A DNA stretch of 64,000 nucleotides from Desulfovibrio sp. JC010 (GTDB lineage: Bacteria; Desulfobacterota; Desulfovibrionia; Desulfovibrionales; Desulfovibrionaceae): assembly GCF_010470675.1 (NCBI RefSeq), contig NZ_VOIQ01000017.1:1-64000 (forward strand). Direction: 5' to 3'. The first letter of the stretch is position 1; each line of letters begins with the position of its first letter. Made by a program: the position numbers and the translations under genes. Under the pieces are notes generated by a model, which was not told the origin of the DNA, did no database searches, and saw only the letters and a list, made by a program, of their open reading frames with translations. Shown in pieces: positions 3,675 to 27,584 of this stretch.

Positions 3675-4994
3675 TCAAAATCCGTAGCGCAGGTAATCTT
3701 TGTCCTTGCGGTTGATGAGCTGGATGTAGCGGTAACGGCTCTTGACCTGAGCTTCTTCGAGCAGGGAGTAGCCCTGATTGCGGCAGGAGTCACAGGCTGC
3801 GGCGGGGATTTCCAGTCCAAAGCCCATGGGACCGCCTTCGCGCTGGGTTTCCACTTTGAGCAGGCCCCGGCAGTTTTCGCAGAGCAGCAGGGATTCGGTC
3901 TGGGATTCAGTGAACCCTTCGGTGTCGTAAAAAATATTGCGATGTCGCACGGACCAGTCTCCGCTGATGACCCCTTCGCTGCTCTCTGTGGGCGGATTGA
4001 AATAGATATCCTTCACGCCTTCGCAGATCTTGGCGATATAATCCATGATCTCATCTGATTCTTTGAGCGTTTCGGGGTTGAAGCCCGGTTCGCGCACGTG
4101 TGAATAATCAATCCCGGCCATGGCCAGACTGATGCCGAGGTTTACGTAAGGCAGCGCGCCCTGAATGGCATAACCGCCTTCTAGCACTGCGATATCCGGC
4201 TTGAGCATGGAATTAAGCGCGGCGTAGCCCTGCGCAGAGAAATTCATGTTGGTGATCGGGTCGGTGAAGTGGTTGTCCTGCCCGGCGGAGTTGATGATCA
4301 GGTCCGGCTTGAAATCATCCAGAATGGGCATGACCGCATTTTTCATGACCATCATGAACCCGGCGTCGGATGTTCCGGGGGGCAGGGGGATGTTCACCGT
4401 GCGTCCGAGGGCCTTGGGACCTCCGGATTCTTTGGGGAAACCTGTGCCGGGATAAAGGGTGCGTCCGTCCTGATGCAGGGAGATGAACAGGGTGTCCGGA
4501 TCATGCCAGTAGACATCCTGTGTGCCGTCCCCGTGGTGGCAGTCGGTGTCTACAATGGCGATGCGTTTGGGACCGTAGTTTTCGCGGATGTATTCGCACA
4601 TGATGGCTTCAATGTTGATGGCGCAGAACCCGCGTGAACCCTGCACTGTCTTCATGGCGTGATGCCCCGGAGGACGCACGAGGGCGAAGGCCCGTTCCCG
4701 TTCGCCGTTCATGACCAGTTCGGCGGCTTTAATGGCTCCGCCTGCGGAAATGCAATGGGAGCGGGTGGCAACGGCCTCGGCTTCGGGAAAGCAGAAGTGG
4801 ACCCGTTCGATATCTTCGCTGGAAGCCACTTCGGGTTTGTATTCACGGATGCCTTCGATGTCGAAAAGACCTTCCTCGCGCAACTGGTCCTGCGTGTAGA
4901 GCAGTCTTTCTTCCCTCTCCGGGTGGGTGGGCGAGATGGCCCAGTCAAAGGCGGGGAAAAAGATGATTCCCAGACTGTTTTCAGCCTTGAGCAT
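3675..4994 (-). CDS. Histone deacetylase-like zinc amidohydrolase with C-terminal zinc-finger tail
   Basis: A 439-residue member of the arginase/deacetylase fold (HDAC, AcuC, acetylpolyamine amidohydrolase). The active-site set is complete: RPPGHH at 107-112, DTDCHHGDGTQ at 149-159 giving zinc ligands D151 and H153, the third ligand D240 in SAGQD, and GGY at 273-275. Bacterial homologues remove acetyl or similar acyl groups from small amines or proteins; the substrate here is unknown. Beyond the usual domain there is a tail with two CxxC pairs (C372/C375 and C401/C404), probably a zinc ribbon. It follows the hydantoinase-like gene by 12 bp with GGAG before the ATG, so the two are one operon. 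Confidence 0.88.
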   Translation of the reverse strand: MLKAENSLGIIFFPAFDWAISPTHPEREERLLYTQDQLREEGLFDIEGIREYKPEVASSEDIERVHFCFPEAEAVATRSHCISAGGAIKAAELVMNGERERAFALVRPPGHHAMKTVQGSRGFCAINIEAIMCEYIRENYGPKRIAIVDTDCHHGDGTQDVYWHDPDTLFISLHQDGRTLYPGTGFPKESGGPKALGRTVNIPLPPGTSDAGFMMVMKNAVMPILDDFKPDLIINSAGQDNHFTDPITNMNFSAQGYAALNSMLKPDIAVLEGGYAIQGALPYVNLGISLAMAGIDYSHVREPGFNPETLKESDEIMDYIAKICEGVKDIYFNPPTESSEGVISGDWSVRHRNIFYDTEGFTESQTESLLLCENCRGLLKVETQREGGPMGFGLEIPAAACDSCRNQGYSLLEEAQVKSRYRYIQLINRKDKDYLRYGF

Positions 4995-22411: not shown

Positions 22412-23740
<1,329 letters not shown>

Positions 23741-23768
23741 GAACAGCTAGACTGTTTAGTTTATTACA

Positions 23769-23799
23769 GGGCTGCGGGGTTATCTCCGCAGCCCTTTTT
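23769..23799 (+). terminator. Intrinsic terminator of eno
   Basis: A 9-bp GC-rich stem, GGGCTGCGG / CCGCAGCCC, then TTTTT. Confidence 0.92.
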
Positions 23800-23919
23800 G
23801 TGTATATGGTATGTTAGTTTTTATGTTGGCGGGGGAATAGTGTATTGTCTTCTTGCCAGTGGGTGAAAATTACAATATGCCTTTTTCACCCACAGGCCCA
23901 AAACAGCGGAGAAATTTCA

Positions 23920-24780
23920 ATGCAGATTTTGAATGGTAAAGAAACAGCTCTTACTATTCGTGAAGAGCTGAAAGTAGAGATAGACGGACTTAAAGAAAAA
24001 CACGGCCGCGCGCCCGGTCTGGCCGTTATTCTGGTCGGCGAGGACCCGGCATCTCAGGTTTACGTGCGCAACAAGGAAATCGCCTGCGAAAAAGCGGGTA
24101 TTGTTTCCACTGCCCACCGTATTGATGCGTCCGTTTCTCAGGAAGATCTGGAAGCCCTGATCCAGAAGCTCAACGCAGACGAGACCATCGACGGTATTTT
24201 GCTGCAGCTGCCCCTGCCCAAGGGACTGGACAGCCAGCGTTGCCTCGAACTTATCGATCCCGGCAAGGACGTGGACGGTTTCCATCCCATGAACGTAGGC
24301 AAGCTCATGCTCGGCCTGCCCGGTTTCCGTTCATGTACTCCCGCAGGTATCATGACCCTGCTGGAACGTTACAACCTGCCCACCTCCGGCAAGAAAGCCG
24401 TAGTGGTAGGCCGTTCCAACATCGTCGGTAAGCCTCTTGCCATGATGCTTATGCAGTACGGTGATTTCGCAAACGCCACCGTGACTGTCTGTCATTCCCG
24501 CACCGACAACCTCGCCGAGGAAGTCAAAGTCGCAGATTTCGTTTTTGCCGCCATCGGCATTGCCAAGTTCATCAAGAAAGATATGGTCAAAGACGGCGCA
24601 GTCGTTGTTGACGTAGGCATCAACCGCACTGATGAAGGTCTGGTGGGTGACTGTGATTACGCCGCCCTTGAAGACGTGGCATCCGCCATGACTCCCGTTC
24701 CCGGCGGAGTCGGACCCATGACCATTGCCCAGCTTCTGATCAATACCGTACAGGCTTATAAGGAGCATGTGGGGGCGTAG
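23920..24780 (+). CDS. folD: Methylenetetrahydrofolate dehydrogenase / cyclohydrolase
   Basis: A 286-residue bifunctional enzyme that interconverts methylene-, methenyl- and formyl-tetrahydrofolate, feeding purine and one-carbon metabolism. Recognised motifs are the [13 protein letters not shown] active-site region, QLPLPKGLD, and the NADP-binding [12 protein letters not shown] with the final [15 protein letters not shown]. The start is ATG 23920, eight bases after GGAG; the frame is open to 23845 but the extra residues are not conserved. Its own terminator follows. Confidence 0.97.
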
Positions 24781-24810
24781 GGTTTAGCTGGTTGATATAT
24801 TTAGGATTGA

Positions 24811-24846
24811 AAAACTCCCTGTCTCGGTTGAGGCAGGGAGTTTTTT
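24811..24846 (+). terminator. Intrinsic terminator of folD
   Basis: A 13-bp stem (AACTCCCTGTCTC / GAGGCAGGGAGTT, one U-G pair) with A5 before and T6 after. Confidence 0.92.
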
Positions 24847-24859
24847 AGTTTGCTGGAAG

Positions 24860-24887
24860 TTGACAAAGCAAAATATTCTACTAGAAT
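24860..24887 (+). promoter_or_regulatory. Sigma-70-type promoter of the ATPase gene, overlapping a palindrome
   Basis: TTGACA (24860-24865), a 16-bp spacer and TAGAAT (24882-24887, five of six matches to TATAAT). The -10 box is the right half of palindrome copy 1, so a protein bound there would block RNA polymerase. Confidence 0.6.
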
Positions 24888-24924
24888 AATTCCAAGAGAA
24901 TAAAATCAAATGCTCTACTAGAAT
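24875..24924. repeat. Upstream palindrome array (three copies)
   Basis: Three copies of a 13-bp near-palindrome: ATTCTACTAGAAT (24875), ATTCCAAGAGAAT (24889, exactly 14 bp later) and GCTCTACTAGAAT (24912). They lie between the folD terminator and the ATPase start. Three matching copies lie downstream of the gene. Confidence 0.75.
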
Positions 24925-24939
24925 AATTTGGAGTATGTC

Positions 24940-26061
24940 ATGAATAATCCTTTCCGCTTTAACACCTTACGCCCCAGCGATCCTTTCTGTGACCGTGAAA
25001 AAGAACTTGTCGATTTGATCACGCACGGCATGAACGGCGCGAACGTGACTCTTTTTTCTCCTCGTAGATATGGGAAAACCTCTCTAATCAAACGTGCCCA
25101 GAATGAGTTGCATGATCAAGGTGCTTACGTCTTTTATGTTGATTTTTATCGAGTAATGTCGGTGGAAGACCTAGCCTCGCGGCTTGCGCGGGCGGTTTAC
25201 GAAGGACTAAGCGAGTATGTGTCCTTTTTTGAGAAGGGCAAAAAAGCTTTGTTGGAATTTTTCAGGACTTACCGCCCGGTATTTACTCCAACTGAAGATG
25301 GCGGGATCGAAATAGATGTGCGCGCTACTGAGGGCATTTCTGGTTATGATTTGCTTGAATCCTTACTCAAAGAAATAGGGCGGTTTGCCGAAAAAGCGGA
25401 CAGACCCGTGCACATCGCCATGGATGAATTTCAGGATATTGTGGAAGTGGACAAGGGTAAAACCGAAGCCTTGTTGCGGACCCATATCCAGATGCATGGA
25501 GCCGGGTATATCTTTGCGGGCAGCAGGCGGCGTATTCTCAAATCCATGTTTACGGACAGGCACCGTCCATTCTATAACAGCACACTTTTGATGGAGTTGC
25601 CCCCGCTGCCCCATGAAGATCTTGTGGAGTATATCGTCGATCTTTTCAGCAAAGGCGGTAAATCTATTTCACGCGAAGCCGCTGTTTTGGTTTCTTCTCT
25701 CGTTGATCAATATCCGTATTACGCCCAGCTGTTCAGCTACTTGTTGTTTGGAATGGGGACTGACCCAAGCCTTGATGATGTTGATGAATGCTTTGAATCA
25801 TTGTTGGCGAGCGAAAGATATTCTTATCAGGGAATTGTAGATGGTTTGACTCCGGTACAGCTTGCCTTGCTGGTCGGGTTGGCAAAGTTTCCCGGAAGCA
25901 AAGTTACCTCGCAGGTCTTCCTGAAAGAAACAAATCTGTCATCCGGCGGGGTGCAAAAAGCTTTGAAGCATTTGAGTGTGCAAGACTTGATTAGCGATGA
26001 AAAGAACGGCTGGGAACTTGTCGACCCGGTATTCAGGAAGTGGCTGATCAGAACATTTTAA
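24940..26061 (+). CDS. AAA-type (archaeal-like) ATPase with C-terminal winged helix
   Basis: A 373-residue P-loop ATPase of the prokaryotic/archaeal ATPase family (PF01637-like). Walker A is the variant SPRRYGKTSL at 40-49, Walker B AMDEFQD at about 162-168, and a sensor region FAGSRRRIL at about 190. The last 70 residues (PVQLALLVGLA to KWLIRTF) form a winged helix typical of this family, able to bind DNA. Members occur in many copies in archaea and some bacteria; their function is unsettled. GGAG lies six bases before ATG 24940. It is flanked on both sides by palindromes and has its own promoter and terminator, so it looks like a self-contained, inserted unit. Confidence 0.85.
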   Translation: MNNPFRFNTLRPSDPFCDREKELVDLITHGMNGANVTLFSPRRYGKTSLIKRAQNELHDQGAYVFYVDFYRVMSVEDLASRLARAVYEGLSEYVSFFEKGKKALLEFFRTYRPVFTPTEDGGIEIDVRATEGISGYDLLESLLKEIGRFAEKADRPVHIAMDEFQDIVEVDKGKTEALLRTHIQMHGAGYIFAGSRRRILKSMFTDRHRPFYNSTLLMELPPLPHEDLVEYIVDLFSKGGKSISREAAVLVSSLVDQYPYYAQLFSYLLFGMGTDPSLDDVDECFESLLASERYSYQGIVDGLTPVQLALLVGLAKFPGSKVTSQVFLKETNLSSGGVQKALKHLSVQDLISDEKNGWELVDPVFRKWLIRTF

Positions 26062-26106
26062 ATCAAAAACTCCCCCTTCCTCAACAGCCGAGAAAGGGGG
26101 AGTTCC
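26061..26106 (+). terminator. Intrinsic terminator of the ATPase gene
   Basis: An 11-bp stem (AACTCCCCCTT / AAGGGGGAGTT) with a 15-base loop and an A-rich left flank. The T-run is poor. Its arms resemble those of the folD terminator. Confidence 0.7.
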
Positions 26107-26111
26107 ATTTT

Positions 26112-26161
26112 GCTCTACTAGAACACTAAAAATTATTCCAATAGAATTATTCTCCTAGAAT
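26112..26161. repeat. Downstream palindrome array (three copies)
   Basis: Copies GCTCTACTAGAAC (26112), ATTCCAATAGAAT (26135) and ATTCTCCTAGAAT (26149, again 14 bp apart). TGCTCTACTAGAA at 26111 repeats 24911 exactly. Both adjacent genes converge here, so this array cannot be a promoter operator. Confidence 0.75.
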
Positions 26162-26193
26162 AATTTCTTTGATTTTATAAATCAACCCAATCC

Positions 26194-27384
26194 CTACCCC
26201 TCAAAAACCTGCTCAAAAATAGCTACGCACTCTTCTTTGCTCATCTTGTAAGGATCAAGGTCGAAGAGGAAACCCATGGCGGTCATGGCGTTGTCTGCGA
26301 GGGCTTCGCACTGTGATTTTTCGAGTTTGAAGTCCTTGATACTCAGGGAGTCGCAGTCAATGGCTGTGATGAGCTCTTTGAGTGCTTTGACGAAAGCCAT
26401 GGGACGTTCATTTTCAGGCAGGGCGTCCACGTTTACGCCCATTGCTTTTGCCATGGCCGGGAACCGTTCCGGGGCTTTTTCAGCCATGAAGGTGAAGTAA
26501 GGGATGCTGAGTAAGATCAGCCCTGCGCCGTGGGGCACTGCGGGGTCGAATGCGGAGAGGGCGTGTTCCATGGAGTGCTGGGAGATGCAGCAGGATGTGG
26601 ATTCCACCAGACCGGACTGGGTGCTGGCCCATGCTAAGGCGGTGCGGGCTTCGAGGTCGGAACCGTCTTTTACTGCGCGGGGCAGGAATTTATTGATCAG
26701 CTCAATGGAACCAAGGGCGAAATGGTCGCTGGCGGGCTGACTGACAGTGGCAAGGTAGCCTTCGGCTGCGTGGAAGAATGCATCCATGCCCTGATAAGCG
26801 GTCAGATGCGGTGGAATGCTGACCATGAGTTCGGGGTCGACGATGGAAATTACCGGGAAGGTGTCGGGCACGAGACCGAAACCGATTTTTTCCTGGGTTT
26901 CCATGTTGGTGATAACGGTCCACGGGTCGGCTTCGGTTCCGGTTCCGGCGGTGGTGGGGATGGCTACCAGCGGCAGGACCGGTTCGGTAACGGATTTGCC
27001 TTTGCCTGTTCCGGCAGGGATGTAATCCCAGTAGTTGCCGGGGTTGTTGACCATGATGGCGATGGATTTGGCGGAATCAATGGGGCTGCCGCCGCCGAGT
27101 CCGATGATGAAATCGCAGTTGCTGTCACGGGCAACCTGCGCGCCTTCCATGACGTGATCGAGGGTGGGGTTGGGCAGGATTTTGTTGAATACTACGGATT
27201 CAATGCCATGCTCCCTAAGCGCGTCTTTGACCATGTCGAGGTAACCGAATTTGATTACGGATTTACCGGATGTGGTCACGATGAGTGCCTTTTTGCCGGG
27301 CAGTTCCATTGATGCCAGTTCCTTGATGCGACCGGGGCCGAAAACAATATTGGTGGGAATGTAGAAATTGAAAGAAGAATTCAT
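26194..27384 (-). CDS. Iron-containing alcohol dehydrogenase
   Basis: A 396-residue group III (Fe-dependent) alcohol dehydrogenase that oxidises or reduces alcohols with NAD(P). The cofactor loop GGGSPIDSAK is at 97-106. The metal ligands are D201, H205, H270 and H285, with H274 in the position of the catalytic His. Substrates range from ethanol to propanediol in relatives. In a sulfate reducer it could serve ethanol oxidation. The gene is monocistronic, ends opposite the ATPase palindrome array, and diverges from the HD-GYP gene. No motif identifies its substrate. Confidence 0.93.
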   Translation of the reverse strand: MNSSFNFYIPTNIVFGPGRIKELASMELPGKKALIVTTSGKSVIKFGYLDMVKDALREHGIESVVFNKILPNPTLDHVMEGAQVARDSNCDFIIGLGGGSPIDSAKSIAIMVNNPGNYWDYIPAGTGKGKSVTEPVLPLVAIPTTAGTGTEADPWTVITNMETQEKIGFGLVPDTFPVISIVDPELMVSIPPHLTAYQGMDAFFHAAEGYLATVSQPASDHFALGSIELINKFLPRAVKDGSDLEARTALAWASTQSGLVESTSCCISQHSMEHALSAFDPAVPHGAGLILLSIPYFTFMAEKAPERFPAMAKAMGVNVDALPENERPMAFVKALKELITAIDCDSLSIKDFKLEKSQCEALADNAMTAMGFLFDLDPYKMSKEECVAIFEQVFEG

Positions 27385-27584
27385 TATGCTGCTCCTAATT
27401 ATTAAATATTAAAAAAGTTAGTAACCTTTGTTTGTCTTCGTTGAATGCAATATGGCAGAGCGGGCGCAAAATCTGAATACCTGTTTTTGAATAGTTCTTG
27501 CCTGATTCTGCAAACGGCTTGATTCTGATCAGGGTCAATGCCATTTGTTCCGCAGTAACCCCATCTAACAGACTGGACAGCCAC

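Follow-up and report, generated by a model that had tools for sequence, protein, structure and literature searches.

Why should arrays of one short near-palindrome stand on both sides of a single gene? In the stretch of Desulfovibrio sp. JC010 DNA that we analyzed (64,000 nucleotides, here called the window), the gene for an AAA+ ATPase with a C-terminal winged helix is placed in this way. A preliminary description of the locus had proposed a self-binding, possibly mobile or selfish, ATPase cassette with its own promoter and terminator. We examined the sites, the protein and their relatives in other genomes.

The six-site array and the gene it flanks

The ATPase gene occupies positions 24940 to 26061 on the forward strand and encodes 373 amino acids, as judged from the reading frame, domain matches and a structure model. 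All three near-palindromes before the gene and all three after it were confirmed in place (none is assigned to a strand). Upstream, U1 (ATTCTACTAGAAT, 24875 to 24887) matches ATTCTANTAGAAT with 0 mismatches; U2 (ATTCCAAGAGAAT, 24889 to 24901) has 2 mismatches and lies 14 bp from U1, and U3 (GCTCTACTAGAAT, 24912 to 24924) has 2 mismatches and lies 23 bp from U2. Downstream are D1 (GCTCTACTAGAAC, 26112 to 26124; 3 mismatches), D2 (ATTCCAATAGAAT, 26135 to 26147; 1 mismatch) and D3 (ATTCTCCTAGAAT, 26149 to 26161; 1 mismatch), the last at 14 bp from D2. Both 14-bp pairs that had been reported (24875/24889 and 26135/26149) are present, and the steps are 14 and 23 upstream, then 23 and 14 downstream. 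The exact repeat reported at 24911 and 26111 proved to be TGCTCTACTAGAA, an odd site that has the same orientation on both sides of the gene.

Single 13-mers with up to 3 mismatches were not enriched in the window (15 versus 20.2 expected). A 14-bp pair pattern with 20 fixed bases and up to 3 mismatches gave four matches in the genome of the window (G000), corresponding to two places read on both strands, all at the ATPase gene; the reversed pattern gave 0 matches at the same settings. A looser pair pattern (up to 2 mismatches) gave 30 matches versus 35 for its reversed control, and all five pair matches with 0 or 1 mismatch in this genome sit at the ATPase gene. We rejected a chance origin of the arrays, since single sites are not enriched, yet pairs are unique to this gene in G000. 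The preliminary description had named a motif widespread away from the gene as an observation that would speak against it, and pairs were found in G000 only at their own gene.

The protein is the Walker-type ATPase with a C-terminal winged helix that had been described. Its Walker A and B residues (R42, R43, G45, K46 and T47; D162 and E163) are invariant in 15 relatives, the Pfam ATPase_2 profile (PF01637) scores 32.6, just below its cut-off of 33.2, and the MarR_2 match of 27.8 is above the cut-off of 27. The AlphaFold model (mean pLDDT of 88.2, pTM of 0.83) places winged-helix helices at residues 325 to 331 and 335 to 347. Domain searches found only AAA+ and winged-helix matches in the protein, with no nuclease or recombinase domain. 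Known defence families were tried and gave weak matches only, and a known RNA at the locus was likewise rejected (no Rfam match in 23700 to 26400).

A promoter-like sequence, TTGACA-16-TAGAAT, overlaps the first site: in the promoter scan, the -35 box TTGACA (24860 to 24865, forward strand) and the -10 box TAGAAT (24882 to 24887, forward strand), which lies inside U1, jointly gave 11 of 12 matches. The gene's own promoter has a candidate, but such matches are as frequent in the region as chance would give (2 found versus 2.0 expected), and this one, taken alone, is a weak candidate. The TTGACA box keeps the same position and distance in both orthologues (L002 and L003), and over the family 26 of 43 regions have a TTGACA-like box at most 30 nt ahead of the paired sites, versus 5 matches of the reversed hexamer. 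As for the terminator that had been assigned to the gene, an inverted-repeat search did find a hairpin 3' of it (26068 to 26104, no strand assigned), but the terminator scan made no call and the T tail is poor. The next gene, adh (26194 to 27384), is convergent, and the downstream array does lie between converging genes, with no promoter between the array and a gene for an operator to act on.

Paired sites across the family and the predicted recognition helix

A paired-site frame, with half-sites of 4 bp, a spacer of 5 or 6 bp and a linker of 1 bp, recurs in fixed form across the family. We compared 102 upstream regions, near-copies excluded, which came from named-genome loci (the best 80 of 469) and from loci of further genome searches. 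A direct period of 14 bp was present in 38 of 95 upstream regions versus 3.75 expected. With the half-site of the paired palindromes set at 4 bp and the spacer at 5, the linker scan found linker 1 in 38 of 102 regions (0.43 expected); within the scanned range of 0 to 12, two other linkers were clearly raised, 10 (which gives the 23-bp step, 8 regions) and 7 (5 regions). The full spacer/linker grid over the 102 regions peaked at spacer 5/linker 1 (38 versus 0.3) and spacer 6/linker 1 (13 versus 0.5); 51 regions carried either strict frame, and about half were without a strict pair. Most other raised cells have the same 14- or 15-bp period and pick up the dyad that lies between sites (3/3, 21; 4/3, 12; 6/0, 8; 3/4, 6). 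Two raised cells of 17-bp period (8/1, 7; 9/0, 5) are unexplained. When one row per 70% identity cluster was kept, the spacer 5 frame was present in 26 of 76 rows and the spacer 6 frame in 11 of 76. Over whole loci, strict placements fell 16 times within the 150 bp before the gene, 3 times within the 150 bp after it, 0 times in the ATPase gene and once elsewhere.

The frame was found again in a hold-out of 29 further loci from 395 genomes of the phylum, 7 of which share 90% identity or more with rows of the discovery set (5 at 100%): spacer 5/linker 1 occurred in 14 of them versus 0.12 expected, and in 10 of the 22 truly new relatives (less than 90% identical to any earlier row). Six of 12 loci on plasmids or phage contigs reached P < 0.05, one of them 130 bp upstream.

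The letters of the sites vary between subfamilies, along with the winged helix. When the 373 protein columns were ranked, Lys or Arg at residue 340 versus C at base 4 of the half-site came first (P = 4.7e-9), and the next column reached 2.2e-4. The Lys340 codon of the window gene (25957 to 25959, forward strand) falls in the predicted recognition helix (residues 335 to 347). For both spacers of the discovery set, Lys or Arg was present at this residue in 17 of 18 genes with C at base 4 versus 0 of 33 others; corresponding counts were 8 of 8 versus 1 of 9 in the 29 further loci and 7 of 7 versus 1 of 4 in the 22 new relatives (P = 0.024). The sets combined gave 25 of 26 versus 1 of 42, and one gene per 70% cluster gave 20 of 21 versus 1 of 29; none of the 12 plasmid or phage-contig relatives was informative on this rule. 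A tree from which the recognition helix was left out requires 8 changes at base 4, and 3 independent pairs fall on its supported branches (8 when the best tree is taken as it stands). On average, 2.2 of the 3 supported pairs go the expected way, 0 go the opposite way and 0.8 show no difference; after this correction, with 3 independent pairs on supported branches, the rule was not significant. The pattern is clean and the count of independent events is thin, and we infer a putative contact between residue 340 and base 4.

A second family member in G000, 47% identical to the first, adjoins hypF. Its array, read by eye, has other letters (ACTATTGnnnnnCAATAAT) and steps of 23, 14, 23 and 14. Over the genus, the paralogue pattern was found at paralogue genes, at hypF ends of G003 and G007 that lack the gene, and once in G005 (3 mismatches), and the reversed control gave 3 matches. 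A regulon reading was rejected because neither motif has a second paired site in G000.

The earlier proposal that the predicted DNA-binding ATPase binds its own sites gains indirect support. Because the paralogue has this geometry with other letters, the winged helix and the sites covary, and G000 has no other paired sites, the ATPase probably recognizes its own arrays. We favor, with a probability of about 0.7, an AAA+/winged-helix ATPase that represses its own gene through paired operators, whose geometry is conserved in the family and whose code can change. The winged helix would read the 4-bp half-sites of the palindromes at its own gene, two palindromes one bp apart would accommodate a pair of dimers, and the 14-bp step (15 bp in some relatives) would be set by how the ATPase domains pack. 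Since the first site overlaps the -10 box, protein bound on U1 and U2 would cover that box and repress its own promoter, and this repression may respond to the nucleotide state of the AAA+ domain. We infer all of these elements (binding, dimers, packing, repression and ATP control); together they suggest a putative switch controlling only itself.

Downstream arrays, arrays without the gene and possible mobility

A downstream array is present in all three folD orthologues (G000, G016 and G009). In G016 it is a direct 56-bp copy, 82% identical, of the upstream array, and its steps, 14 and 23, follow the upstream order; the symmetry that had been described is real in G000, but the mirror is partly accidental. 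By eye, G009 and G003 have a longer array, different parts of which are kept in G000 and G016. Few regions have a downstream pair (5 of 96, three being the folD orthologues). Locus L226 has a copy of promoter and array 3' of its gene, with no second ATPase found behind that copy, and L145 has a strict pair after the gene only. Terminal inverted repeats were rejected: the 63-nt, 71% inverted match in G000 arises because palindromes stand in a periodic array, is a direct copy in G016 and has no downstream partner in most relatives. We read the downstream block as a duplicated operator. It would be an additional set of these sites, descended like the upstream set from one longer array, with at most a possible role as an auxiliary operator or loop anchor.

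The stricter pair pattern, applied to 17 genomes of the genus, found the array in all three genomes with the gene (G000, G016 and G009). It also found an array at folD in G003 with 0 mismatches, yet no ATPase was found there at E 0.001. Elsewhere in the genus there were nine matches in five genomes, with 2 or 3 mismatches, and the reversed control gave 5 in total. The hypF end was readable in 13 of 17 genomes: 4 had gene and array, 2 (G003 and G007) had the array only and 7 had neither. The preliminary description had counted arrays at the same site in strains without the ATPase as evidence against a cassette, and such arrays do exist, at folD in G003 and at hypF in G003 and G007. No significant tblastn match to gene remnants was found beside the orphan arrays of G003 and G007, and we read these arrays as left over after gene loss.

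The alternative closest to the original proposal is a self-mobilizing or selfish one-gene cassette, in which the arrays are the element's ends and the ATPase, by binding them, promotes its own insertion; on balance we think this unlikely. In its favor, the gene is patchy, being present in 18 of 58 relatives and 32 of 297 genomes of the class. The family is present under 17 phylum labels, and several phyla take more than one position on the tree, which fits transfer, although mis-binned contigs and paralogues also give the same pattern. Relatives occur on 70 of 72,556 plasmid records (none more than 60% identical). A link to viruses was rejected: no family member was found on viral contigs, and both matches among 50,697 phage records are faecal contigs. 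The comparison of folD-adh flanks that had been proposed showed folD and adh as neighbors without the ATPase in G015, G013 and G005. At the window locus, no other gene lies between folD and adh, there is no transposase or recombinase beside the ATPase, and no repeats resembling target duplications were seen besides the arrays.

Over the 17 genus genomes (window positions 23740 to 27500; L028 to L045), the stretch 3' of folD varies widely, with adh directly, the ATPase or various other genes, and has the look of an insertion hot spot. About 2 kb past folD, G008 carries the folD 3' end once more (77 residues, with 86% identity to the query; L040 and L045; G008:C4:444168-446761); end duplication at folD thus occurs also without the ATPase.

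In G014, 5 and 6 repeats of a CRISPR array flank the paralogue, as they might an inserted cassette, but within the insert the paralogue is also surrounded by a hairpin and about 300 bp of other DNA. The same CRISPR locus encodes an 874-aa protein (L203, 3591 to 6215) with a YADD motif, which we take to be reverse-transcriptase-like. Direct repeats of at least 30 bp, lying no more than 500 bp away on each side, were found at 11 of 82 loci versus 1 of 230 shifted windows. Two of the 11 are the arrays themselves (L002 and L003) and one is the CRISPR locus (L004); the repeats of the remaining 8 enclose 1.20 to 1.55 kb, as a one-gene unit might, but are uneven, at 39 to 441 bp and 83 to 98% identity. 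One of the 8, L145, holds a GxxExxY-like gene. Another, L154, has a 42-bp near-perfect palindrome on both sides of an Omnitrophica ATPase gene (2772 to 2813 and 4181 to 4222), and this palindrome could represent an independent small repeat element. Among further loci, 3 of 38 had direct repeats: that of L226 is the array copy, the gene of L227 is identical (100%) to that of L084, and L244 is new. Third codon positions account for 62 of the 101 differences in five coding repeats, a pattern that suits copies diverged as working genes in separate lineages and later joined by host recombination at least as well as a target duplication made by transposition.

Genes resembling AAA ATPases with DUF4143 were seen near family members in L084 (1398 to 2780), L157 (4599 to 5303) and L210 (115 to 1322), the domain being annotated in L210 only and assigned by eye in the other two. 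On two Bacteroides plasmids (L210 and L218) the ATPase frame is broken, with matches in two pieces and no gene annotated beneath.

The insert-like character of the unit thus held up as gene-sized insertion, with patchy presence, different neighbors, empty folD-adh junctions, the CRISPR copy and long flanking repeats in its support. Mobility of its own is less well supported: the protein has no nuclease or recombinase domain, no fixed element end was found, the repeat divergence fits host recombination at least as well and most relatives are without a downstream array. A fuller version, also doubtful in our view, would have one-gene selfish units of about 1.2 to 1.5 kb under the 17 phylum labels, in which the ATPase sees only the array at its own gene, copies stay separate because the letters change together with the recognition helix, and array and gene spread without a transposase, leaving arrays behind when the gene is lost.

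Known relatives and meaning for the family

Among solved structures, the ATPase is nearest to the archaeal proteins PABY2304 and SSO1545; Orc2 and other members of the Orc/Cdc6 group come next. SSO1545 (PDB 2fna) and PABY2304 (PDB 2qen) are the best profile matches (E values of 7.8e-11 and 3.4e-6) and take Foldseek ranks 1 and 2 (TM-scores of 0.71 to 0.75), although they are archaeal and 17 to 18% identical. In a literature search with limited access to subscription papers, no report of DNA sites was found for either. Orc1/Cdc6 and Orc2 share the layout of an AAA+ domain followed by a winged helix but are distant (12 to 16% identity, TM-scores of 0.43 to 0.58). These fold matches, the A+T-rich repeats adjoining the gene of their presumed binding protein and the relatives on plasmids could point to an Orc/Cdc6- or iteron-like initiator, with the arrays as the present or former origin of a small replicon. 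However, the arrays have two to five sites and lie over promoter-like sequence, copies in the genus are on large chromosomal contigs next to housekeeping genes, and a replication role is not indicated for the ATPase; we consider an initiator very improbable. That an unrelated host protein binds the arrays, with the ATPase gene merely adjacent, would accommodate the arrays of G003 and G007 that have no neighboring gene, but it is scarcely credible given that the letters of the sites track ATPase subfamily and residue 340 and differ between the two paralogues of a single genome, and that no other gene has paired sites.

The favored reading, a self-repressing ATPase, has partial parallels. MarR-type autoregulated repressors combine the same kind of winged helix with a palindromic site over their own promoter; the window protein differs in its added AAA+ domain and in paired sites, with a one-bp linker, that are kept across the family. 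IniR of mycobacteria is described as a signal-transduction ATPase of 818 aa with a domain predicted to be SSO1545-like, a MalT-like sensor domain and a C-terminal DNA-binding domain, which regulates the iniBAC operon (PMC5760070). It shares with the window ATPase the SSO1545-like ATPase and a DNA-binding end but, on that account, does not act on itself only. Our literature search, in which coverage of subscription papers was slight, found no report of the arrays described here.

For this large ATPase family the literature search found structures but no DNA target, and our comparisons now offer a predicted target and a testable reading rule. If the rule holds, the target sites of relatives would be predictable from their sequence, and the ATPase could be studied on its natural DNA. 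It would also raise the question of why an ATPase that binds DNA only at its own gene is so widely, and so patchily, spread.
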